The position numbers were made by a program, and so were the translations under genes. A DNA stretch of 22,507 nt from a virus, in the IMG/VR virus record IMGVR_UViG_3300010373_000457, positions 1-22,507 of that record; one strand, given 5' to 3'. Below, one piece after another: positions 491 through 21,975 of the stretch. Within the stretch, counting starts at the first letter, position 1. Every line of letters begins with the position of its first letter. The notes beneath the pieces are model-generated. The model worked only from the letters and a program-made list of their open reading frames with translations, did no database searches and was not told the origin of the DNA.

Positions 491-1462
491 TTAGTTGTCC
501 CTACGGTGACGACGCTGTTGCTTCTCTTCAAGAACATCGGTTCCTGCGAGCTTGTTCCAATTTTCGATCTGATCTCCAACGGATTCGATCAGTGCGATAT
601 CATCATCACCTTCGTCGTCATTGGTAACGGTTGCATTACGGTGTTCAGCGATAACCTCTAGACGATCACGCTCGACAACGCGCTTCCCCCGACCCTCTAC
701 GATTCTTGCTTTTCTCTGACGCTCATTCTTTTCAGTACGAGTTGCTTCGGTCAGCACCTCAGCCTGCTGACGCACCGCCTCGTTCAAGCGGTTGTTTTCG
801 GTAGCGAGACGCATGTTCTTGGCTTCCAAGATACGCTGCTGACCACGCATCTCCTCAAGATTGCGGCTGAGTTCCTCAAGCTTGCTGGAGGTAGCGAAGT
901 GGTAGTCTTCGTCGGACATATAGCCGGAAGCAACTTCCAGAATCTTGTCCAAGGCGAGCTTGTGTTCTGCGAACGTAGGATCGCCCAACACATCACGCTT
1001 TGCCTGCTCGTAGAACTCCTCGCCCTTCTGGGACAGGAAGAGGTCGAGCTTCTCAACGAAGAACTCACGAATTTCACGGACCTTCTGGTCGTACTGCTCG
1101 TACAGGTCCACCTCAAGATGTTCGTTCTTCTGACGCTCCTGAACAAGCATTTGGTATGCTTCTTCGTAACCCTCACCCAAAGCGTGTTCAAACTCTTCAC
1201 GCTGGATCTCAAGACGGTCACGCAAGTCGCAAATGATTTGATATGCTTCGGCGTAGCCTTGCTCAGCGACCTTCTCGACCTGTGCCTTCTCCTGTGCAAC
1301 AATCTTGTAGGCTTCTTCAAGCCTTACGTTGTACTCTTGCTCAAGCTCAGCACGCACGTTCTCAACGAAGGTGCTAACAGCCGCGATTACGTCCTTTTGG
1401 ACATCTTCAGGCAACAATCCGGCAAGAGCCTGCATGATGTACTCTTTGCTAGTCTTCTTCAT
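491..1462 (-). CDS. 22: Prohead core scaffolding protein, T4 gp22-like
   Basis: This 323-residue, highly charged protein is almost entirely predicted helix. Heptad-like stretches rich in Glu, Gln and Lys run through about residues 35-135 and 190-265, with an acidic patch (NDDEGDDD) near 282-289 and a basic Arg-rich C-terminus. It lies between the gp21-type protease and the gp23-type capsid gene, the position of T4 gene 22, whose product forms the internal core on which the capsid assembles and is then degraded by the protease. Its ATG overlaps the protease stop codon (ATGA at 1459-1462), so translation is probably coupled. The length is near that of T4 gp22. The assignment rests on position, length and coiled-coil character rather than on a catalytic motif. 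Confidence 0.85.
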   Translation of the reverse strand: MKKTSKEYIMQALAGLLPEDVQKDVIAAVSTFVENVRAELEQEYNVRLEEAYKIVAQEKAQVEKVAEQGYAEAYQIICDLRDRLEIQREEFEHALGEGYEEAYQMLVQERQKNEHLEVDLYEQYDQKVREIREFFVEKLDLFLSQKGEEFYEQAKRDVLGDPTFAEHKLALDKILEVASGYMSDEDYHFATSSKLEELSRNLEEMRGQQRILEAKNMRLATENNRLNEAVRQQAEVLTEATRTEKNERQRKARIVEGRGKRVVERDRLEVIAEHRNATVTNDDEGDDDIALIESVGDQIENWNKLAGTDVLEEKQQRRHRRDN

Positions 1463-2241
1463 GAATGCAACCTCTCTTTAATTTCGTTGGTTTTGTTCTC
1501 GAAAACACAACCCAAGAACGTAATCAATGCCTTTGCATTTACCTTATTTATGCGGCTGGCTTCATTTTTTCTTGAATTGGTATCGTAAATTGTCGGAATG
1601 CTGCCCTCATTGGCACCCGCAACAATCTTCTGCTGGAATGCAGAGAATGTGGATGGGTCAGCAACAGCATCAAAAGTGATCAGCTTGTAAGACTCACCGA
1701 TCACCAAAACGCCGTCTTCATTGGTAGAGCCATTGCCCACGCCACGGCTGCTGATGCCCACGCGAACACCAGCGTTAAGAAGGCTCCTCAGTACCTTACC
1801 AGATGGCGTGTCAAGAACTTCACCTTCGCCCATGAGAGTCTGACCATCCCACCACAATTTTGTGACGAGGTGACTAGAATTCTCAAAGTGAATGATGGAG
1901 TCAGTTGGGTGATCCAACTCACCTATCAAACCACGGTTAGATACTGCTTCCTTCAGTCTTTTGACGTTCGATTCAAGAATGTCGTAAGGGTACATGCGGC
2001 GATTCTTGTTCACCGCGTTCGCCTCTTGAAACTTACCCTTGAACTTCAGTGGTCCCGGTCCCTTGCTCGTCTCGTTGATTTCGCAAGTGATGCAAGACAC
2101 ACACTCGCCGATCAGCCAGTCACCATTGTCAGAGAGAACCTCATTAAGATAATCAATTGACTCGGTGATAAGTTGATTAGATTTCGGATCATAGATCCGT
2201 CCATAAAGCCCCGTAGAAGGAAACTTTTTGGTTTTTCTCAT
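1459..2241 (-). CDS. 21: Prohead core protease, T4 gp21-like serine protease (peptidase family S77)
   Basis: This 260-residue protein matches the phage prohead protease family that cleaves scaffold and capsid precursors during head maturation. Visible family motifs are GKFQEANAVNKNRRMYP (about residues 69-85), GELDHP with the probable catalytic His at 111, and VGISSRGVG with the probable nucleophile Ser at 164 or 165. The acidic third residue cannot be assigned by eye. The start ATG at 2241 is preceded by AGGGGGAA. The stop overlaps the scaffold start. T4 gp21 is about 212 residues, so this version is somewhat longer at the N-terminus. Its cleavage specificity in T4 (after a Glu preceded two residues earlier by Ile, Leu or Ala) matters for the neighbouring small proteins with MKxFxxYV-type N-termini. 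Confidence 0.92.
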   Translation of the reverse strand: MRKTKKFPSTGLYGRIYDPKSNQLITESIDYLNEVLSDNGDWLIGECVSCITCEINETSKGPGPLKFKGKFQEANAVNKNRRMYPYDILESNVKRLKEAVSNRGLIGELDHPTDSIIHFENSSHLVTKLWWDGQTLMGEGEVLDTPSGKVLRSLLNAGVRVGISSRGVGNGSTNEDGVLVIGESYKLITFDAVADPSTFSAFQQKIVAGANEGSIPTIYDTNSRKNEASRINKVNAKALITFLGCVFENKTNEIKERLHS

Positions 2242-2255
2242 TGGTTTCCCCCTGG

Positions 2256-4268
2256 TTAGCGACCATCAATACGGGAGCCGCCAAGCTTCACCTTTGGCTC
2301 CAGGCTTCCTGCACCACCGGACTCCAAGTCCTTGCTCCTGTTTTCAACGTCATCGACACGGTTATCGCTGTTGACGTGTGGCTTGATACTCTTCGGAACG
2401 TATGGGTTCTGGAGAGATGGCCATGTATCGTTATTGCCAATCATGTCCAGACCAGACTGCCAGGTCTTGTCAACGCCCGGCTCGCCATGCAGGGTGAATT
2501 CACCAGCCTTCGGAACATATGGGTTCTGGAGGTCTGGGTACTGGTCGCCCCACTTGCCCTTGCCGTCGTCCATCAAGCCGACGTAAGAAGTGTTCTTAGA
2601 CTTGTTGCCAAAGGTCTTGTAGCCCTTACCATCTGTGTCAAGCTGCGGCAATTCGGAACCCCAATCACCAGTGAAGTCCTGGGCTGGGGTATACGGTTGC
2701 TTTGCCTTCTGATGCATGGCTGGAACATCGCCAGTCACGGTAACACCAGGGGTTTTCACAACGTCCCAATCACCCATCTCAAGGTTGGTTTCAACGATGT
2801 TCTCAAGCCAGCCAGCTACCGTAGCAGCCAACTCAAGGCTTGGAACTTGCTCGCCCTCAAGGACACCTTGGAGGCTAGTTGCGAGTTCCTCTGCCTCTTC
2901 GCGGAGAGCATCGTTGCTGGTTTCCAGAGCCATGCGACGGACTTCAAGAGCCGCGTTGTAGAGGTCAGCGAAGACCTGCATCTCCAACGCAACACTTTCA
3001 TCCAAGCTTGGGTAGAAGTCGGAAACGACATTCTGGAAATAGACGTATGGGTCTTCCGTCTCGGTGACAGGCGCACCACTCAACTGATGGATGCGAGCAA
3101 CGCGGTCGTTGTAAGCACCGTGAGCGACACGCAAAATGCCCTCGCTCATGAAGCTGCAAGTACGGTCGTCGTAGTTACTGACACCAGCGCGACTCAAGGA
3201 GTCTGCGATGACACCAGCCAACTCTTCCTGAGTCAAGTAGAGAACGCTTGGGAACTTGGAGACGATCTCGCCCAGGCACTCCTCAAGAGAAGCGTTGTCG
3301 GACATATTGTTGTGACGCTTCAACTCCGCGATCATCTCAACGAAGTTACGGTCACTGGAAAGACGACGTGCGGTTTCACGAAGAACCTTCAAGTCGGTCT
3401 TCAGGGTCTTCAACTGGAAGGAAAGAATCTTACCTTCGTTGCGAGCCTGGCTGGTTGGGATCTTGATTGCTGTGATATCGCCCTTGCTGTTGGTCTGGAC
3501 AGCCGCTTCATTCAGAACGCGACCGTTCTCAACAAAGTCGAGATAACCGAAGACGTTCTCGTACAGGCTGACCCATTCGGTCATTGCCTTCTTGTGCTTG
3601 CGACCGACAACGGAAGCTGCCAGGCGGCGGAAGCGACCATACAACTTGCGATCACGCTTCTGACGCTCGCCGCGCGGATCGTGACGCTTACGGGATTCCC
3701 AAGACTTGAATGCAGCACGCGGATGCTTGCGGTGTCCCTCCTTGGCGCGACGGCTGCGACCAGGATCAGGAGGACCATAGCGAACAAAAACACCAGAGCC
3801 GGCTTTACCACCACGGCGCGGCTTACGACGAGAGAACGTACCAGTCGCTTCGTTAACACGCGCGTTACGCTCCTGCGCGGCTTCACGTTGTAGGCGACCA
3901 CGAACCAAGCTCATCACTTCGTCAAAAAGGTTGTCTGCTTTTGGCTTATTATCCTCAAGGATCGCGTCGATCATATTGCGGATGACATCCTTACGCGCAC
4001 TGGTTTCGCTCTGTTCATCAATGACAATCTCTTCAAGACCCTCAAACAGGATCTCAGTTCTGCCAAGCTTGTAGTTTGCGCGGACGAAGGTGCCGTTCTC
4101 TGTCTCATAGTAAACGTGAGACTCATTGAAGTTGTGGAAGGTCAGCGGACCAGTTTCCAGAACGCGGGACAAGATGTCTTCCGCCTCAATGAGTTCGTAT
4201 TGAGTAGATGGAAGAGACTTCTTCGTCCACTCCTCAAATACGTCATATCCAATTAGTTTTCTCTGCAT
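2256..4268 (-). CDS. Unrecognised 670-residue probable prohead/virion protein with basic centre and repeated PYVPK peptide
   Basis: I do not recognise a family. The ATG at 4268 is preferred because AGGAGA sits eight bases upstream; the frame stays open to 4391, but that extension would overlap the start of the divergent gene. Residues about 147-228 are extremely basic (many Arg, Lys and Gly), suggesting nucleic-acid or core binding. Residues 230-560 look helical. The C-terminal about 120 residues are low-complexity, with the peptide LQNPYVPK twice (encoded near 2508-2531 and 2391-2414). The gene sits between portal and protease, where T4 has core genes 67 and 68 and encodes much smaller proteins. 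A core or internal capsid role is inferred from this position only. The stop lies 15 bases before the protease start. Confidence 0.8.
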   Translation of the reverse strand: MQRKLIGYDVFEEWTKKSLPSTQYELIEAEDILSRVLETGPLTFHNFNESHVYYETENGTFVRANYKLGRTEILFEGLEEIVIDEQSETSARKDVIRNMIDAILEDNKPKADNLFDEVMSLVRGRLQREAAQERNARVNEATGTFSRRKPRRGGKAGSGVFVRYGPPDPGRSRRAKEGHRKHPRAAFKSWESRKRHDPRGERQKRDRKLYGRFRRLAASVVGRKHKKAMTEWVSLYENVFGYLDFVENGRVLNEAAVQTNSKGDITAIKIPTSQARNEGKILSFQLKTLKTDLKVLRETARRLSSDRNFVEMIAELKRHNNMSDNASLEECLGEIVSKFPSVLYLTQEELAGVIADSLSRAGVSNYDDRTCSFMSEGILRVAHGAYNDRVARIHQLSGAPVTETEDPYVYFQNVVSDFYPSLDESVALEMQVFADLYNAALEVRRMALETSNDALREEAEELATSLQGVLEGEQVPSLELAATVAGWLENIVETNLEMGDWDVVKTPGVTVTGDVPAMHQKAKQPYTPAQDFTGDWGSELPQLDTDGKGYKTFGNKSKNTSYVGLMDDGKGKWGDQYPDLQNPYVPKAGEFTLHGEPGVDKTWQSGLDMIGNNDTWPSLQNPYVPKSIKPHVNSDNRVDDVENRSKDLESGGAGSLEPKVKLGGSRIDGR
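2391..2531. repeat. Direct repeat of 24 bases encoding LQNPYVPK-type peptides
   Basis: The 24-base units at 2391-2414 and 2508-2531 differ at one position, and their starts are 117 bases apart (39 codons). Both lie in frame in the C-terminal tail of the 670-residue protein and give the peptide LQNPYVPK, preceded by Pro-Asp or Pro-Ser. This indicates duplication of a short linear motif within a disordered tail, possibly a binding peptide for a capsid or core partner. Confidence 0.8.
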
Positions 4269-4826: not shown

Positions 4827-5312
4827 TTAAACATCTTCTACACTGTAGGGATACCCTTCACGCCCACGCCTTATTTGTTCTGGCTCTGGAAATCTTGCTA
4901 AACTTGATTTGTTCTTCCCCCAGAATTGTCTGCCCTCTGGGGTCTGGTATTCATGCCTGTAGATGGGTCCAACCTGCTCTGTGAAATAATCATACATTGC
5001 GCGTGCAATGCCTTGACCGCGATAGTTTTTATCAACGTGGACGTAATCGGTCGAGTAAGTGTGCTTCGGACCCTTGAAGATTTCGCCATTCTTAGTGAAT
5101 CTGACCGATCCAACCAACTTGCCATCCTCCGTATGGACTTGGACAGAGTAAGACCATCCAGCCGGACCCTTTGACGATTCGATCTGGATTATGAACTTTT
5201 CCCCATTCTTTCCTTTGAAGTAAGACTTGCCTCCCTCAGTTTCAGTAAATTGAGTGCTGGTGTGGTCCCATATCATGAGTCTGTTTTCAAGCAGCCAATC
5301 TTTGAACTTCAT
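4827..5312 (-). CDS. GNAT-like N-acetyltransferase, possibly capsid-packaged
   Basis: This 161-residue protein contains the hallmark acetyl-CoA binding motif of GNAT acetyltransferases, VDKNYRGQGIARAMYDY at about residues 93-109, where RGQGIA forms the pyrophosphate-binding loop. Preceding strands (about 38-90) fit the GNAT core. The protein is short on the C-terminal side, and no substrate can be inferred. The N-terminus MKFKDWLLENR resembles T4 capsid-targeting peptides and contains LLE, a fit to the LxE cleavage rule of gp21-type proteases. If that holds, the enzyme would be packaged and injected, like T4 Alt. The start is supported by GGAGAA a few bases upstream. It lies between the DUF2934-like gene and the convergent plus-strand gene. 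Confidence 0.7.
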   Translation of the reverse strand: MKFKDWLLENRLMIWDHTSTQFTETEGGKSYFKGKNGEKFIIQIESSKGPAGWSYSVQVHTEDGKLVGSVRFTKNGEIFKGPKHTYSTDYVHVDKNYRGQGIARAMYDYFTEQVGPIYRHEYQTPEGRQFWGKNKSSLARFPEPEQIRRGREGYPYSVEDV

Positions 5313-5347: not shown

Positions 5348-5617
5348 TTACAGAAACTTAATAATCGGGAAATTAAGAGGAAGAACCAAATCGACCTCAT
5401 TTAATATCTTGGTTGGGTCTACAATCTCGTCGGTTAGACATAACTGCAACCTCCCTCTATTGATCTCATCAAACTCGCACTCCGCTGCAACCCAGAAGTC
5501 GATGCTATTACCATAAGGGCTTCCAGCTTTTAACCATTTGTGGTAAGCCGCTTCTCTCACTTGATTCTCACGATAGTTTCTCCACAATTCGGCTAGATCC
5601 GAAAGATAACACTCCAT
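5348..5617 (-). CDS. Small protein with DUF2934-like motif
   Basis: This 89-residue protein has a segment at about residues 20-51, REAAYHKWLKAGSPYGNS followed by IDFWVAAECEF. That matches the DUF2934 pattern (arginine, AY, W, aG.P.G, then W..AE). The role of that family is not known to me. The ATG overlaps the portal stop codon by one base (TAATG at 5617), indicating translational coupling with the portal gene. GGAGAA in the portal 3' end is a plausible ribosome binding site. The C-terminal about 35 residues are unrecognised. Confidence 0.65.
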   Translation of the reverse strand: MECYLSDLAELWRNYRENQVREAAYHKWLKAGSPYGNSIDFWVAAECEFDEINRGRLQLCLTDEIVDPTKILNEVDLVLPLNFPIIKFL

Positions 5618-8217
5618 TACAATTCTCCAAGCTCAATCGGGTCGATCTCCTCCTCGTCCTTCTCTTTGGAGAAATCACGAATCTCAAGGTCATACTTCTT
5701 GATGTCTTCATCCGAAGGTTCCGGTAGTGGTTTAGCTTCTGGTTTTGCTTGTGCGCCAGCCGGTCCACCTGCTTGAGTACCACCTGCGCCTCCGCCAGGA
5801 GGAGGTGGTGTTCCGCCACCAGCACCCTGATCGCCACCTTCCGGTTGTTCACCTTCGCCCCCAGCACCACTTGCTCCACCGGCACCCTGACCACCTCCCA
5901 ACATTGGGTTAGGACCACCGGCTTCACCACCCATCTCTTGATCGCCCTCACCGGGGTTGCCAAGACCTAACATCTCAGGGTTCTGACCCATGACCTGAAT
6001 CTTCATGTCCTCAATAGCCTGCATCTTCGCACGGCTTGACATCTCGCGAGCCACATCTGGCTGGTACTTGAGAATTTCAACCAAGGCGTCATACTTGCTC
6101 ATCAACTGAGCCTGGACAACGGTGGAAGCGTTAGTGTAACGCGCCTGCATGACCTCCATGCGAGACATTTCACGCCACTCGCTCGGAGGTGTTAACTTGA
6201 TCTCAAGGTCATCCCACATTTCCTGGGGATAGCCACGGAGCGTGAGGTGACGCTCAGCAATTTCTAGAAGCCCGTCTGCAAGGGAGGATTGTAGACGCTC
6301 GATATAACGGGCGAACTTCACGTCCTGGCTGGAAAGCGTCATCTTACTGACGTTCGGATCATCCTGAGACAGGTAGTTCTTCGGAAGATGTAACGCCGTG
6401 AGCAACTTGTTACGGAAATAAAGGGCGTCATCTACCTCGCCCAAGTTCTGCGCACCAGGCAGTGTCTCGATACGGGTGTTACCATTTGGACGAATTGGTA
6501 GCCAGAAGTCTTCGTCTTGTGCCGGTGCGTGCCATCTTTCTTCCACTGAGCCTGCACCACCCGTTTGCGAAGCACGGTTGGTGTACATCTTCTTCTTGCG
6601 TAGCTGGTCTTTCAGGCGCTCAATGAAGGCTTCAGCTTTGTTTGGCGGCAAACTACCAACATCGACATAGAAGACTCTTCTCTCAGGTGCGCGAGTTAAA
6701 CGATACACAACCATCGCATCTTCCATCAGACGTAACTGGTGCGCAGGACCGCGAGCCGGTTCGATGATGGATACACCATACGGATAAAACGTCTTGCGAT
6801 CATCACCGATCCGTATGTGAACAATCTGTTCAGGTGCAAAGCGAATAGCAGTCGCCTGGGCAAGTTCTGCATCATTCGCCTGCGTAACATCCACACGCGC
6901 GAGGGATTGATAGTCTGGACCTTCTTTGCTTTGCTGGAATTCCAGCAATTTACCCTTGGTAGTTTCAATGCGATAGATACTGTCTGCCGGAAGCGGGTTA
7001 ACTTTTAGCACACCCAGCTTTGGATTCTCTGGGTCAATAACAACCTCACCAAACCAATCTCCCATGCAGTACAAGTTCTTTGCCCAATTCCAAATCTTAC
7101 GATCTACCTTGAGCAACTTGTGATACATATACTCCAGTTCCTTCTTCACCGTCTCGTTCTTACAGACGATGTTAAAGGTGTGACCATTGTCACCAATCTG
7201 GCAGTTATGTAGAATGCAACTATCAGTAGCAAAATTCTCATGGTCATCAACGCTGATGTCATAAACATCAATTGTTGGACCCTTAGCGGTGCCGATGACA
7301 CGACGACGATCTGGATGACGAGCATTAAGAGACTTAACTTCTCGATAAGTAAAACCGTTCCTGCGTAGGAGGGTTTCAATTGTCTTCCAGTCAACCTTCT
7401 TCTCGCCGCCTAGAATCTTCTTGGTTTGTTCTAACTGAAGTCCTTCGGTGAGGCACTTGAGGGCTGTCTTCAAGCGGGGGTCGTACCCCGCCTTGTCGCC
7501 CATCCTCCACTCGTCCACGAACTGACGTTCGTGCTTCCAGCCGTCCGCGAAGGTGTAAATGCGTGGAAACTGACTTTGTTTACCGCTATTCAAACCATGC
7601 TGTACACGAACGCGGTAAAAAGGCATAAGTTCATCGCCGGTCTTGATGCTGCCAGCATGAACCCACTCCCCGTTTCTCAAAAGAACGCGGTGATCCTCAG
7701 TAAGCCTGAGCTTGGTTCCGTTATCGAGAAAGATGTCTACAGTGGGAGCAGTCTTGACTTTACGAGCATCATGACCCCATCCCAAGGTGTAATCTCCCCT
7801 ATGGAAGTCGTAACAGTAGACAAGGAACTTTTCCCCAGGTTTCTTGGTTTCCGCCAACTTCTGAATCGAGATATTGCCAAAAGGGGTAGAGACGGGGGTA
7901 TCGCCACTCACACAGGATTCGTCTGCCAAAATGTCAAGAGCAGCTTCTATTTCTGCCACATAGCGGAGACGTTCATACTCTTTGTAGCGACTTTGACGGT
8001 TGGTAACACTGGATAGGTCGATGAAGTCGTTGGAGTCACGCAGCCTGATCTGACCCCTATTACCTCCACCCCACCAGTTGTCGGCGCGGATGTCGGGAAT
8101 AGCATCAGGCTGTGTAACACCAACGCCGTCAAGCGTTTTCTCAGCACGCTTTCTCGACAGGGGGTCTGGCTTGAAGGCGTATGTGAAGTATTTGTAAAAG
8201 TCTGCCCAGAATGGCAT
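5617..8217 (-). CDS. 20: Portal protein, T4 gp20-like, interrupted by an intein
   Basis: The precursor has 866 residues. Residues 1-101 and 339-866 form a T4 gp20-type portal, the dodecameric channel at the capsid vertex through which terminase pumps DNA. Family features include SRYKEYERLRYVAEIEAALD before the intein, CQIGDNGHTF after it, and the segments KEYERL, GVSIIEPARGP, RAPERRVFYVDVG and PKNYLSQDDPNVSKMTLSSQD. Splicing would leave about 629 residues, longer than T4 gp20 (about 524). Part of the surplus is a Gly, Pro and Gln rich tail (about 745-830) ending in an acidic patch. The ATG at 8217 follows AAGGAA with good spacing, and an exact CTAAATA lies 49 bases upstream. The downstream small gene overlaps its stop by one base. 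Confidence 0.93.
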   Translation of the reverse strand: MPFWADFYKYFTYAFKPDPLSRKRAEKTLDGVGVTQPDAIPDIRADNWWGGGNRGQIRLRDSNDFIDLSSVTNRQSRYKEYERLRYVAEIEAALDILADESCVSGDTPVSTPFGNISIQKLAETKKPGEKFLVYCYDFHRGDYTLGWGHDARKVKTAPTVDIFLDNGTKLRLTEDHRVLLRNGEWVHAGSIKTGDELMPFYRVRVQHGLNSGKQSQFPRIYTFADGWKHERQFVDEWRMGDKAGYDPRLKTALKCLTEGLQLEQTKKILGGEKKVDWKTIETLLRRNGFTYREVKSLNARHPDRRRVIGTAKGPTIDVYDISVDDHENFATDSCILHNCQIGDNGHTFNIVCKNETVKKELEYMYHKLLKVDRKIWNWAKNLYCMGDWFGEVVIDPENPKLGVLKVNPLPADSIYRIETTKGKLLEFQQSKEGPDYQSLARVDVTQANDAELAQATAIRFAPEQIVHIRIGDDRKTFYPYGVSIIEPARGPAHQLRLMEDAMVVYRLTRAPERRVFYVDVGSLPPNKAEAFIERLKDQLRKKKMYTNRASQTGGAGSVEERWHAPAQDEDFWLPIRPNGNTRIETLPGAQNLGEVDDALYFRNKLLTALHLPKNYLSQDDPNVSKMTLSSQDVKFARYIERLQSSLADGLLEIAERHLTLRGYPQEMWDDLEIKLTPPSEWREMSRMEVMQARYTNASTVVQAQLMSKYDALVEILKYQPDVAREMSSRAKMQAIEDMKIQVMGQNPEMLGLGNPGEGDQEMGGEAGGPNPMLGGGQGAGGASGAGGEGEQPEGGDQGAGGGTPPPPGGGAGGTQAGGPAGAQAKPEAKPLPEPSDEDIKKYDLEIRDFSKEKDEEEIDPIELGEL
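7204..7914 (-). other. Mini-intein within the portal protein (237 residues)
   Basis: The intein spans precursor residues 102-338. Block A starts at Cys102 (CVSGDTPV). Block B contains the TEDH signature (Thr173, His176). Block F is VYDISVDDHENF, and the C-terminal splice site is His337-Asn338 followed by Cys339 of the extein. All residues of a standard class 1 intein are present, so it should splice. The roughly 100 residues between blocks B and F (about 201-305) show neither LAGLIDADG nor an HNH signature. They contain a helical segment and a basic stretch, so this is probably a mini-intein with a non-endonuclease or relic insertion. Joining DES to CQIGD restores a continuous portal sequence. 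Confidence 0.92.
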
Positions 8218-9530: not shown

Positions 9531-10049
9531 TTAGGCGTTGTACCTCTTGGAAAGATGTCTGATAACATCTCCCGAATGTTTTAATAGTGCCGTGAATCCA
9601 AAATGTTTAGGGCTAAGCTCCATTAAGCCTTCGTACCCCACCCAGACGAATCTATCGGTTTCCCAATTGATTTGCGGCTCCCAATCGCCTTTGACAATCT
9701 CGCCAATGAAATTGTGATAGGTGAACTTTGGTTTCCTTAACTTATCTTTTTCCGGTGATACATAAACGTAAGCCGGATGTAGTGTTAAAGGACCGTTATA
9801 TTCTGTCTCCTCAAAAAACTCCCTACGGGCAGCTTGGTCTGGCGACATCTCTTCGTCATCGATCTTTCCACCTATCGTAGACCAAGTGTGAGGTTCATAG
9901 CCGACCCCTCCAGATCGGAGCGCTACTAGCCATTTGCCTATGTCTGTAGCAATGGCGAGAACACCGGCACCCTGAGAACCCCAATAACCCCGGCTTTCCA
10001 AGAAGATTCCAAATGAGGGATACATATCATATATACTTAGCACTTCCAT
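9531..10049 (-). CDS. Nudix hydrolase
   Basis: This 172-residue protein has a Nudix box at about residues 59-84: GGKIDDEE, then MSPDQAARREFFEETEY. Compared with the canonical G-x5-E-x7-REUxEExGU it has one extra residue before RE and Glu in place of the final Gly; the metal-binding REFFEE core is intact. Strands before it (LAIATDIGKWLVALRS) and after (FTYHNFIGEIVKG) fit the fold. Substrates of phage Nudix enzymes include nucleoside triphosphates, ADP-ribose, NADH and dinucleoside polyphosphates; none can be assigned here. It starts 14 bases from the divergent sulfotransferase-like gene, and neither start has a clear Shine-Dalgarno sequence. The stop is 10 bases before the secreted peptidase start. 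Confidence 0.88.
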   Translation of the reverse strand: MEVLSIYDMYPSFGIFLESRGYWGSQGAGVLAIATDIGKWLVALRSGGVGYEPHTWSTIGGKIDDEEMSPDQAARREFFEETEYNGPLTLHPAYVYVSPEKDKLRKPKFTYHNFIGEIVKGDWEPQINWETDRFVWVGYEGLMELSPKHFGFTALLKHSGDVIRHLSKRYNA

Positions 10050-10974: not shown

Positions 10975-12768
10975 TTACCAATCAAATTCCTTAAGGAGTT
11001 CATCAAATGGGCGACGGACATCATGCATGACGCGACCCATCATCAATGCCTCGTCTCCTGTCATCATGTCGTCTTCCTCGTCTTCTGCCTGCTCAGCAAG
11101 AAGTTCCTCAATCATACCACCTTCCAATTCCGCCTTGATCTTGAGGAAGAGGTCGCCCTTGGATAGGTCAATGGCATTATCAGAGTAACCTTTGAGCCGA
11201 TGTGCGCCAATTGGCATCTCGCGTCTGCGTGCATCAAGAATGCCCATAAGGAGAGCCAAACACATCACCAAGTCATCATGCTTGCCCTTCTGGGCTTGCG
11301 GCTTCTTGTTGAGAACTACAAAGGTCTTCAGTTCCTTGACTAAGCGGAAGCTCTTGATCTTGATCCTACTGTTGTGTAATGCCGCTTGCATCAATTCGAG
11401 GAATACCGGACGGTTGCCCTTGTTCATGTTAACACCAGCCGTTTCCATATTGCGGCGAGTTTCGTAGTGCAGGTTTGGATAACCCAAGCCGTATTCCAAC
11501 TTATTGATAACAGTTAAGCCCTGTTCTGCGGCTTCCACAATTACCAAAGCTTCCTTGTACCATCTACCTACGTTGAAGACGACCTGGGCAAAGTCATTAG
11601 CGGGGATGGAGTTGGAGTAGAATTCACCAACTTGCTCCATCGTATCCAGCCGCGCGATGATGAAGGCGCTGTTGTCTTGACCAACACCATGAGATACATC
11701 GGCTGTAAGAACATATTCAACACCGTCCTGCGGCTCCTCCCAAATCCACATGGCACCACGGTTGTAGTGAGGGTTAAGCATCTTCCAATCTTCGTGGGCA
11801 CCCGTATCATCATTTTCCCATTCGTGGAATAGCTTTTTGATGGGCGGTGTGCGACCTGTGATCTTGGCAAGATTGGTGATACACTCACCGCTAACATAGG
11901 TTTCACCAGATCCCAGGAAGTCACCCAACACTTCTTGACGCCAACCTTTTTCACCTAGGTTGGCACGCATCTCCTTCACCCAATCGGCATTATTGTACTC
12001 CGGGTTCTCCGTGTATTCAATGTCGATGACGTGGAACATATTCTTGTGTTGCTGAGCGGCGTGGAACCATTCCTCATACCAGTTACCAAGACCATTGACG
12101 GTCGAGATGACAATACAGCTACCACCAGTGGACAGCGTTGGGTACATGGACTTCCAGTGTTCGTCCATGTTCTTGATGAACGCCGCTTCGTCAATAATGA
12201 GGTAGGTCAAAGACTTGGAACGAGCAGCTTCGCAGGTCCAGAACTCAATGGAACCGTTGGTATCACTGAACACCTTTTCGTGCTGGTTGTCGAGTTCAAC
12301 ATCCGGCTTTATCCATTCTGGAAGATACTTCAAGACGTTGGTGACAATCTTGCCAGCGCCCTTGGCTTCACGGTCAGACTTGGACAGAATCATGATCTTC
12401 TGGTCGTTCTTGAACATGCAACGCCAGAGTGCCCAGATCACGGTTAAGGTGGTCAAACCGCCCTGACGGAATTTGCGAATAATGCTATGTTTGTATTCGT
12501 CATATTCACGAATACATCTCTCCTGATACCCGTACAGGTTAAAAAGCACCAGACCGCGCTTCGGGTGGGTGATGTAAACATAGTTCTCCGCGAAATACTT
12601 GAAGGATTCCGCACAGCGGGTGTACTCCTCAAGCTTTTCATCTTGAGACAATTCTTCTAGCGCATTGCGGTATGATTCACCGCCGTCAGTTGATTCCACC
12701 AGTTCTTTGAGCCGTTCTGAAATCCATGTTGGATCTCTCGCTTCCGTGAGCGCAGTATTCGTTTCCAT
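10975..12768 (-). CDS. 17: Terminase large subunit, T4 gp17-like
   Basis: This 597-residue protein has both terminase domains. In the ATPase, a Walker A-like loop FRQGGLTT lies at residues 100-107, where canonical GKT has Leu in place of Lys. Walker B LIIDEAAF is at 190-197 (Asp193, Glu194) and coupling motif STVNG at 222-226. In the RNase H-like nuclease, the metal-binding acidic residues are probably Asp357 (TADVSHG), Glu412 (VIVEAAEQG) and Asp498/Asp499 (KGKHDDLVMC). It docks on the portal and packages and cuts DNA at the head-filling end. The length matches gp17 (about 610). CTAAATA lies exactly five bases before the ATG and there is no Shine-Dalgarno sequence at a usable distance, so the mRNA may be leaderless. 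Confidence 0.95.
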   Translation of the reverse strand: METNTALTEARDPTWISERLKELVESTDGGESYRNALEELSQDEKLEEYTRCAESFKYFAENYVYITHPKRGLVLFNLYGYQERCIREYDEYKHSIIRKFRQGGLTTLTVIWALWRCMFKNDQKIMILSKSDREAKGAGKIVTNVLKYLPEWIKPDVELDNQHEKVFSDTNGSIEFWTCEAARSKSLTYLIIDEAAFIKNMDEHWKSMYPTLSTGGSCIVISTVNGLGNWYEEWFHAAQQHKNMFHVIDIEYTENPEYNNADWVKEMRANLGEKGWRQEVLGDFLGSGETYVSGECITNLAKITGRTPPIKKLFHEWENDDTGAHEDWKMLNPHYNRGAMWIWEEPQDGVEYVLTADVSHGVGQDNSAFIIARLDTMEQVGEFYSNSIPANDFAQVVFNVGRWYKEALVIVEAAEQGLTVINKLEYGLGYPNLHYETRRNMETAGVNMNKGNRPVFLELMQAALHNSRIKIKSFRLVKELKTFVVLNKKPQAQKGKHDDLVMCLALLMGILDARRREMPIGAHRLKGYSDNAIDLSKGDLFLKIKAELEGGMIEELLAEQAEDEEDDMMTGDEALMMGRVMHDVRRPFDELLKEFDW

Positions 12769-20098: not shown

Positions 20099-21199
20099 TT
20101 AGCTCGCGAGTTTTTTCTTCTCGTCTTTGGGCTTGGACTTGATGGGCAACTTCTTAGCCTTCTCTTTGGCTTTTGCTTTCGCTTTCTCCTTCTTTGCTTT
20201 TACTTTCTTTGCTGCTGCCTCCTCAGCTAACTCTACATCGTTTACCGTGGCTTGGCTAATTCTACTCTCAGCAATTGAGATGTATTCTTTGTCTAACTCA
20301 ATTCCCGTATACACCCTACCTAGCCGAACAGCAGCTACCGCTGTAGTTCCAGATCCCATAAAGGGATCAAGAACGTAATCACCAGGATTGGTGAACAACT
20401 TGATGAACCAAGTTGGTAGCGATATTGGAAACGCTGCGCTGTGGTTTTTGTTACCACACTCTGTCGCTAAATGTAGTACATTCTCCATCATAGGAGGTTC
20501 TACCTGTACTTTGATCTCAGGGTGACTTTTGATTAAGTAATCCAAGAGAAGACACGGTATGTTCCCCATGTCTCTTTCGTCAAGTATAAGGTCTTGGATG
20601 ATATCATCCTCAAGGTGCAGTACATTGGTGGGATAGACCTTTTCTTTCCCTACCCAATTGGAGACATTCTTTCCAAACCCGGAACCCACTTTTGAGTTGT
20701 CTCTTACTTTGTCGGTGTCGCTTAAGTGAGCCAATCGGGTTTTAGCCCAATCTCCAATTGGAACCATCACAGACTCCTGATTCATCAAAAAATCCCTCTG
20801 CTTGTTGAAGTGAAGGCATCTTTCCCACGAATCACGAAATCTGTTTTTCCATTTCCCAGGAAAGGAGTTCTTTTTGCACCAAATGAACTCTTCCGTCCAA
20901 AGCCATCCATGCTCCCTCATCATCTTAATGAGGTCGATGACGTAGGTACTTCGCTCCCCGTTAACAACTTTCTCTTTGATGTTGAGGATGAAAGTGCCAT
21001 TAGGTTTCAATACCCGATGCAGTTCCTTTGCAATAGGTTCAAACCAACCTACATATTTGTCGGGGTGAATGCCGCCGTATGTGTTTTTTCGCTGGTCCGC
21101 GTAAGGCGGCGATGTCATAATCAATTGATAGAGGCTATCTGGTACTTCTTTTAAGACAGAACCACAGTCGCCGAGCAGGATCTCGTTTTCGATTTTCAT
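20099..21199 (-). CDS. DNA methyltransferase, probably N4-cytosine type
   Basis: Starting at the ATG at 21199 (GAGGA upstream), the protein has 366 residues. The catalytic motif TSPPY is at 29-33 and the AdoMet-binding motif DPFMGSGTT at 278-286. Catalytic motif before AdoMet motif is the beta-class order. SPPY favours N4-cytosine over N6-adenine, but not absolutely. NHSAAFPISLP (about 252-262) is typical of the family. The segment between 192 and 244 is unusual: NVLHL occurs twice, 48 residues apart, flanking an apparent insertion. The tail (about 318-366) is extremely Lys-rich and may bind DNA. It lies eight bases after the putative restriction endonuclease stop and should protect phage or host DNA from it. 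Confidence 0.9.
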   Translation of the reverse strand: MKIENEILLGDCGSVLKEVPDSLYQLIMTSPPYADQRKNTYGGIHPDKYVGWFEPIAKELHRVLKPNGTFILNIKEKVVNGERSTYVIDLIKMMREHGWLWTEEFIWCKKNSFPGKWKNRFRDSWERCLHFNKQRDFLMNQESVMVPIGDWAKTRLAHLSDTDKVRDNSKVGSGFGKNVSNWVGKEKVYPTNVLHLEDDIIQDLILDERDMGNIPCLLLDYLIKSHPEIKVQVEPPMMENVLHLATECGNKNHSAAFPISLPTWFIKLFTNPGDYVLDPFMGSGTTAVAAVRLGRVYTGIELDKEYISIAESRISQATVNDVELAEEAAAKKVKAKKEKAKAKAKEKAKKLPIKSKPKDEKKKLAS

Positions 21200-21207
21200 T
21201 TTTATCC

Positions 21208-21975
21208 TCAATCAAGGTCCAGGTCGTACAAATCAGGGAAGTCAATCATGCCGCTGGGGAGGGTATATTCCTCGGCAAATTCTCGAAGGCTCCTTGCAGC
21301 GCCTTGTTTAGCGAGCTTCATGTCACTCCCCATCGCCCTACGAGCAGCGTCAATCGCCGGGACGATCACCGTGTTACAAAAATCTGTCACACCAGTGATG
21401 AATTCCCAGAACATCTTGTTACTCACTACCAAGATACCAACTTCACCAGCGGCAGTGTGGTAGACTTCTCTTTTTTTGTAGTTTTTGCCGCCAGTGTACC
21501 CCCAGATGTTTAGTACATCGCGATGGTAGAAGTCTCGTAATGTTCGTGCATATTCACCCATCTTCCTAGCTAGAGCCTCTTTTGCAGCGGAGTTGCCCCA
21601 CTTGTCTGACGACTTAGCTTGCAAGTGCGCCTGCTTATTTCCCTTTTTGAAAACCGCATCAAGATCAACAGGCTTCTTTCTTTCTCCTTGTCGAATCTCT
21701 GCGTCCGGGTATACCAGTGTTATCAGGTCTTCGGCATATGCTCCAAGCACGTTGCCCATCCTCGTCTCGAACGATGACGCAAAAAAACGACTCATTTCCT
21801 CTGTAGCCCAATCAAGGGGCGAAACGCCACTGTGGGCAATGGCGCAATACATATTCTTTTCGAGTATCTTGTTGGCGATCTTCTCTTCGTTTCTTAGCAT
21901 GTCGATGACATCGCAGTACATGCTTATAACGCTTTCTTTCAAATTCTCTCTTGCCTCACTTAAATCCAAAATCAC
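21208..21975 (-). CDS. Putative type II restriction endonuclease (PD-(D/E)xK-like)
   Basis: This 255-residue protein starts at GTG (21975) behind AAGGAG. No close family is recognised with certainty. It has a plausible PD-(D/E)xK nuclease core: Glu82 in a helix (GAYAEDLITLVYP), PVDLDAVF (Asp104, Asp106) and HLQAKSS (Gln119, Lys121), with Gln in place of the usual Asp or Glu. It is immediately upstream of, and on the same strand as, a DNA methyltransferase, the standard layout of a type II restriction-modification pair. The role is therefore supported mostly by context and length. It could restrict competing phage DNA. The upstream gap holds an 8-base inverted repeat but no clear sigma70 promoter. 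Confidence 0.68.
   Translation of the reverse strand: MILDLSEARENLKESVISMYCDVIDMLRNEEKIANKILEKNMYCAIAHSGVSPLDWATEEMSRFFASSFETRMGNVLGAYAEDLITLVYPDAEIRQGERKKPVDLDAVFKKGNKQAHLQAKSSDKWGNSAAKEALARKMGEYARTLRDFYHRDVLNIWGYTGGKNYKKREVYHTAAGEVGILVVSNKMFWEFITGVTDFCNTVIVPAIDAARRAMGSDMKLAKQGAARSLREFAEEYTLPSGMIDFPDLYDLDLD

Follow-up and report, generated by a model that had tools for sequence, protein, structure and literature searches.

A near-fixed, nuclease-free intein in the portal gene of very large T4-like phages may be kept for its body or its insert

It is debated whether inteins are pure parasites or can be retained because they bring a benefit, and the usual candidates for beneficial inteins are conditional splicing switches. 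Here, we describe an intein in the T4 gp20-type portal gene of a 22,507-nucleotide stretch of viral DNA (IMG/VR record IMGVR_UViG_3300010373_000457, positions 1 to 22,507; below, the window) and compare it with the closest described systems. Phage inteins are known from the large terminase (TerL) of crAss-like phages (PMC7886860), phiCbK (PMC3556154), and jumbo phages (PMC7412058) and from the Jug huge phages (PMC12363816). Inteins also lie in the portal protein of six members of mycobacteriophage cluster C1 (PMC5050341), which resemble the window family in having a portal host. Archaeal inteins with helix-turn-helix (HTH) accessory domains and mutualism between nuclease and Hint domains are known as well (PMC8966425): TliVMA and PI-TkoII, like the intein described here, embed an HTH-type module, but theirs assists a homing endonuclease within archaeal proteins, whereas no nuclease was found among the Pfam families listed for the present intein. 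The P. horikoshii RadA intein is likewise nuclease-free and has been suggested to persist because it serves regulation (PMC8987985); its use is a splicing switch, whereas here it is the insert or the body that looks kept. A portal intein is not named in the intein passages of two jumbo-phage overviews (PMC7824862 and PMC13282480) or of PMC12619734 on large aquatic phages, and in the portions of the open-licence literature searched we recognized no account of either a portal intein fixed in large T4-like phages or an intein body detached from its host gene.

Like class 1 endonuclease-free (mini-)inteins, the intein in the window combines Cys1, a TxxH motif, a His-Asn end, a +1 Cys, and a Hint fold, with no nuclease signature found. 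Unlike them, it holds a folded insert of ∼100 residues that is under selection, it is near-fixed in a phage clade, and it has one detached copy without exteins. The features of the gene are as follows.

5617..8217, minus strand: portal precursor, T4 gp20 type, 866 aa (PF07230 Portal_T4, phrog_213)
7915..8217, minus strand: N-extein, residues 1 to 101, with C-terminal end LADES (alignment with sister portals)
7204..7914, minus strand: intein, 237 aa, portal residues 102 to 338 (PF14890, TIGR01445, TIGR01443, AlphaFold2)
7615..7914, minus strand: N-terminal part of the Hint domain (Hint-N), intein residues 1 to 100, blocks A and B (TIGR01445, invariant columns in 73 inteins)
7912-7914, 7699-7701, and 7690-7692, minus strand: codons of C1, T72, and H75 (intein numbering)
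7297..7614, minus strand: insert between blocks B and F, intein residues 101 to 206 (alignments A1 and A3, AlphaFold2, ratio of nonsynonymous to synonymous substitution rates [dN/dS])
7318..7479, minus strand: HTH-like part of the insert, intein residues 146 to 199 (HTH Pfam families, LuxR/NarL-type folds)
7204..7296, minus strand: C-terminal part of the Hint domain (Hint-C), intein residues 207 to 237, blocks F and G (TIGR01443, invariant in 73 inteins)
7207-7209 and 7204-7206, minus strand: codons of H236 and N237 (intein numbering)
5617..7203, minus strand: C-extein from Cys339 (+1 nucleophile, 7201-7203), starting CQIGD (alignment with sister portals)

Profile searches identified the host protein as a T4-type portal (PF07230 Portal_T4, E = 1.1e-78; phrog_213 portal, E = 4.5e-77). 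The intein segment alone matched PF14890 (E = 1.5e-10; 41.5 bits versus a cut-off of 35.8), TIGR01445 (35.7 bits; cut-off 24.5), and TIGR01443 (23.8 bits; cut-off 15.6). These matches bear out a first-pass annotation of this DNA, which had placed an intein with blocks A, B, F, and G in a gp20-type portal and had proposed a Hint-domain profile search; C102, T173, H176, H337, N338, and C339 stand where it had put them in the 866-aa open reading frame (ORF). The comparison with empty sites that it had also proposed gave LADES^TLKSAMG in sister gp20s versus LADES^CQIGDNG in the window (^ marks the junction). In an alignment of 73 distinct inteins (A1, from which locus L002 was left out), C1, T72, H75, H236, and N237 were invariant and Cys34 was near-invariant, and the +1 residue was Cys in all 82 rows of the precursor alignment. 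Complete copies were nearly constant in length (228 to 238 aa).

An AlphaFold2 model of the intein from 73 sequences reached a mean predicted local distance difference test score (pLDDT) of 93.4 and matched the splicing domain of the Mtu RecA intein (Z of 21.6; root mean square deviation of 1.5 Å over 137 residues). A sequence search of the PDB was weak with the single intein (E = 0.004), in which antibody matches were dismissed as chance, and better with the intein profile (E = 5e-9). The intein was also matched lengthwise by NF052663, a model of an RtcB-related intein; searched against genomes, this model gave matches in 10 of the 14 genomes used as controls, probably to RtcB itself. Given models above their curated cut-offs and this fold, a chance match is excluded. 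On its residues, its modeled fold, and its clean in-frame insertion, the element is a class 1-type intein, and the same residues and fold suggest that it is able to splice. The first-pass annotation had further seen no homing-endonuclease signature and had called the element a mini-intein. HNH, LAGLIDADG, and GIY-YIG were indeed absent from the Pfam families listed for the 73 members (25 of 48; E up to 10); nevertheless, the label is loose, since the 237 residues include the folded insert, and a bare mini-intein of Hint plus a short linker does not fit the hairpin and five helices that AlphaFold2 places there.

With the whole precursor as query, 80 viral loci were retrieved, all with the intein at the identical junction as far as each contig reaches, and a search with the C-extein only agreed except at contig edges. 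Because score ranking could favor intein carriers, a blind sample was drawn from IMG/VR by a DNA-pattern scan for an intein-independent extein motif, HQLR[LM]MEDAM, ∼160 residues downstream of the junction; it covers portals with this clade motif, more diverged portals falling outside. The scan yielded at least 119 stretches, and 118 loci were examined: 109 carried the intein at the site, one (L456) showed the last intein residues up to HN at the contig edge, one (L375) was empty, and 7 ended before the site and were excluded. The site was occupied in 110 of the 111 readable portals among the matches listed. By the first 300 bases of the C-extein, the 109 occupied loci comprised 88 distinct sequences, and portals were 48 to 69% identical to the window C-extein (65 loci tallied). 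Since contigs reach 527 kb in IMG/VR and 595 kb in LR756511, the carrier lineage is one of very large phages.

The nearest intein-less group found, Flavobacterium phage immuto and its relatives, was ∼30% identical; this sister clade gave intein matches at 0 of 80 loci, and the junction, readable in 61 of them, was ADES^TLKN or similar. An attempt to find intein-less alleles with the exact pattern ADEACQK was discarded: none of its 13 stretches had a tblastn match to the portal, and the pattern is unable to detect L375, which reads ADEACQI. Scanning of bacterial and archaeal genomes matched 31 stretches and confirmed one relative (L258); this is a phage portal, its contig being filed under a Neisseriaceae metagenome-assembled genome, and it has the intein at the same site and a second one at the sporadic site 2 described below. 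Collapsing duplicates by identical sequence reduced 284 loci to 110 distinct ones.

The C-extein and intein trees, compared through their path-length matrices, were correlated (Mantel r = 0.704 for n = 109, versus at most 0.148 in 999 permutations), indicating that the intein descends together with the portal and giving no sign of frequent homing. The occupancy and this correlation do not fit the pattern of a homing intein, which would be sporadic and discordant with its host gene. Pooled over 10 independent close pairs with unsaturated synonymous sites, dN/dS was 0.071 for the insert, 0.082 for Hint-N, 0.045 for Hint-C, 0.043 for the C-extein, and 0.028 for the N-extein.

The insert (residues ∼101 to 206) consists of a hairpin and a helix, followed by four helices of which three are HTH-like, as judged from the alignments and the AlphaFold2 model, where its ten-residue pLDDT means range from 75 to 98. 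The hairpin-helix has the consensus PRIxTxxKGWxHERQFxDEWxxGK and the HTH-like part RMIxxGLxxRQIxKxxGxDWxTIxxWxxKxGFS; six insert positions (two G, two W, one E, and one L) were invariant in the 73 inteins. In a fold search with the insert only, HTH proteins came out on top, with LuxR/NarL-type folds at Z values of up to 5.7. An HTH identity for this part is likely, although not proven. Hint-HNH inteins of other phages (the second portal intein of L209, the LR756508 portal, the LR756501 ribonucleotide reductase, SP-15, and CL131) have the same Hint halves and a similar order of elements, with a hairpin-helix followed by a C-terminal helical region, but an HNH core is theirs only. In a profile alignment to four HNH inteins, residues 1 to 136 and then 168 to 229 were paired and the HNH core fell in a gap. 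The insert alone matched none of the four significantly, and the isolated hairpin-helix element scored 9.7 compared to up to 15.0 with shuffled columns (60 shuffles). Descent of the insert from an HNH intein whose core was lost lacks statistical support and is a lead only.

The single empty site belongs to L375, a 33.7-kb contig (IMGVR_UViG_3300032884_000230) whose portal reads YADEA^CQIGENG without an intein. Its gene order is TerL, two small ORFs, a 235-aa ORF, an opposite-strand ORF, and the portal, and the 235-aa ORF is a free-standing relative of the intein.

L375, 4217-4924, plus strand: free-standing intein-like ORF, 235 aa, ATG start, 655 bases upstream of the portal

This ORF aligned end to end with eight inteins at 35 to 42% identity. 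It starts Met-Ser and ends Ser-Asn-stop; since exteins are absent on either side, it cannot act as a splicing element in a host protein. Replacements affect C1 (now Ser), T72, D219, and the histidine of the terminal His-Asn pair, whereas the insert motif GWKNERQFIDEWR is kept. Strongly conserved positions were retained at 14 of 17 in the insert, 24 of 34 in Hint-N, and 6 of 10 in Hint-C (7 of 10 with the last Asn aligned alternatively). Leave-one-out minima over the 73 working-type inteins were 0.82, 0.79, and 0.70, respectively; the L375 Hint-N (0.71) fell below all 73, and its insert (0.82) lay at their minimum. The codon-position base composition of the ORF resembles that of its neighbors, and none of 20,000 random (Markov-1) sequences stayed open over its length. 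The L375 portal is nested in the intein-bearing clade (support of 0.93 to 0.999 at the nested nodes, 0.76 at the closest, and 0.21 to 0.56 at the outermost three), and the intein was therefore most likely lost from it. Thus, in the one genome where an empty portal site was found, a detached copy incapable of splicing is present, which suggests that the body or the insert is useful without splicing. A second free-standing copy was not found: 77 of the 78 loci checked (77 newly collected plus L258) have the intein beside the portal, the exception being L375's own contig, and a search of 457 loci at E = 1e-3, blind to diverged site-2 inteins, gave no second intein-like copy beyond the HNH-type inteins of L209/L259 and L398. 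Between the terminase and the free-standing ORF, L375 also has an Acb1-like gene, of the type acting against the cyclic oligonucleotide-based antiphage signaling system (anti-CBASS), or 2H phosphoesterase gene (3590-4135, plus strand; PF23474, E = 1.2e-7; PF13563, E = 2.1e-7).

Two sporadic intein sites in the same gene serve as an internal control for the fixed site. In the blind sample, site 2 (YRL^(T/S)RAPER) was occupied in 13 of 117 loci and empty in 104, with 1 further locus left out; direct reading added L353, L378, and L420 to 10 occupied by alignment, and the 21 loci that the direct-reading motif missed were scored by alignment (20 empty). Site 3 (LPGA^(Q/S)NLGE) was occupied in 1 of 110 loci and empty in 109, with 8 left out. 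A 418-aa intein at site 2 (L082, 5781-7034, plus strand) gave weak LAGLIDADG and homing-endonuclease matches below cut-off. A 420-aa intein at site 3 from outside the blind sample (L209, 5438-6697, plus strand) had an HNH_3 match just under cut-off and a readable HNH motif, IHHVDYNRLNNNPNNL. Shortened inteins that have lost most of the insert occur at both sites, in L353 at site 2 and in L398 at site 3 (1570-2181, plus strand; ∼205 aa). In L398, a truncated HNH motif runs directly into the Hint C-terminal part, and by its sequence this is an HNH intein in decay. Inteins with an endonuclease and inteins in decay are what would be expected at sporadic sites, and both occur there; neither kind is present at the fixed site.

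We favor, at about an even chance, the reading that the intein is immobilized and owes its retention to a function that its body or insert has for the phage. A class 1-type intein would have lost its mobility long ago and then become fixed in the portal gene of very large T4-like phages. Cys102 would initiate the N-S acyl shift, assisted by Thr173 and His176; Cys339 would accept the acyl group, and Asn338, with His337, would cyclize. The predicted products, in equal amounts, are a portal of 629 aa and the released intein body of 237 aa, so that the portal gene would give two proteins, a portal and a Hint-plus-HTH protein. Retention of the intein would then be due to a phage function of the hairpin-helix/HTH domain, or of the body displaying it; binding of nucleic acids in the context of packaging, head assembly, or late-gene control is the most likely candidate. 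A bolder version, which we put forward only tentatively, holds that the intein is a self-releasing device delivering a nucleic-acid-binding protein in fixed stoichiometry with the portal, that selection keeps the released protein, and that in L375 this protein became an independent gene after its loss from the portal. If true, the intein would be domesticated for its cargo and not as a splicing switch. With a near-fixed nuclease-free intein, a conserved cargo domain, the sporadic sites as control, and a single genome where the cargo lies apart from the host gene, kept for cargo versus kept for splicing becomes a directly testable choice.

Several observations weigh against a function of the insert or body. 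Over distant pairs, nearly saturated (98 sequences kept after duplicate removal), median dN/dS was 0.19 for the insert compared to 0.11 for Hint-N, 0.12 for Hint-C, 0.06 for the C-extein, and 0.05 for the N-extein, and clade-wide identity was lowest in the insert. The insert evolves faster over long times, yet it is constrained, with purifying selection on close pairs like that on the splicing domain. Modeled by itself, it reached a pLDDT of only 69.7. HTH matches were weak per sequence (HTH_23 and HTH_7 in 12 of the 73 members each; best E = 5.9e-4), the window's own intein had no HTH Pfam match, and the NarL match (free and DNA bound; Z of 5.7) was under the stated reliability level, with no match at Z ≥ 8. 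The free-standing case is one contig, its position counts are small with no statistical test behind them, and Ser can act as the N-terminal nucleophile in other inteins, which bears on its C1-to-Ser replacement. In members other than L375, the insert may serve splicing only.

This last point leads to the main rival, a rather unlikely one in our estimate, in which the mutualism is internal to the intein: the insert would be a structural part of the Hint domain, splicing of the essential portal would fail without it, and exact loss would be rare. Such a dependence agrees with an insert that models well within the whole intein and poorly alone and whose dN/dS is similar to that of Hint-N, and deletion of the endonuclease domain impaired splicing in several inteins, with mutualism being proposed (PMC8966425). 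However, the L375 body has no exteins and has lost splicing residues, yet its ORF is open and its insert motif kept, which suggests that the insert has a function independent of splicing. The shortened inteins of L353 and L398 at the other sites also lost most of the insert, which would count against this rival if they still splice.

We consider it improbable that the intein is a conditional splicing switch, with slow or signal-dependent splicing (DNA, redox, or ATP) timing late portal assembly. Near-fixation at one site would suit a switch, C1, C+1, and the near-invariant Cys34 could be redox sensitive, and there is a precedent in the P. horikoshii RadA intein, which splices with single-stranded DNA (PMC8987985). 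So would the location, since portal, terminase, and prohead core protease form one head module.

10975..12768, minus strand: large terminase, 597-aa open frame in which Pfam lists no intein family (PF03237, E = 6.9e-7)
1459..2241, minus strand: prohead core protease, gp21 type (PF03420, E = 1e-25)

However, the sister clade and the L375 portal do without the intein, and a switch leaves the detached copy unexplained. Because the L375 portal belongs to the clade, gating of head assembly by splicing, raised in the first-pass annotation, is not essential in every member.

That annotation had also offered the alternative of a relic or of retention by a helper domain, and occupancy, purifying selection on the insert, and the detached L375 copy favor the second. 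A neutral relic heading to loss, kept because exact deletion is rare, would explain the missing nuclease signature and an insert that is conserved less than any other region at long range, but we hold it very improbable given the close-pair dN/dS, on which it is disfavored, the six invariant insert positions, the steady length of complete copies, and occupancy in portals sharing as little as 48% identity with the window. Equally remote is a still mobile intein whose insert is an endonuclease of unrecognized type: efficient homing would give high occupancy, and the element order resembles that of HNH inteins in other phages, but the intein and portal trees agree, none of the three endonuclease types appeared among the families listed, the single relative confirmed in cellular genomes is a phage portal with the same site, and the sister clade is uninvaded.

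Other genes on the window contig, all on the minus strand, are an N6/N4 DNA methylase (20099-21211), a NUDIX hydrolase (9531-10049), and a GNAT acetyltransferase (4827-5312). Further inteins were noted in other phages. The 484-kb phage LR756508.1 has an HNH-type intein in an immuto-type portal (L264, 2001-3400, plus strand), directly before STLSQQSIKF, a fourth portal site. In the 735-kb phage LR756501.1 (L537), a 312-aa HNH intein lies in ribonucleotide reductase (HNH_3, E = 1.5e-7). In Brochothrix phage BL3 (gp2/gp3; L263, 1936-2607, plus strand), the TerL gene end lies within the N-half of an intein and the following ORF comprises the C-half and the C-extein, an arrangement that, from its sequence, looks like a naturally split, trans-splicing intein. 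In Lactobacillus phage CL2 (L261, 1670-2590, plus strand), the TerL frame enters an intein N-half and then stops, and the next ORF is annotated as an HNH endonuclease.

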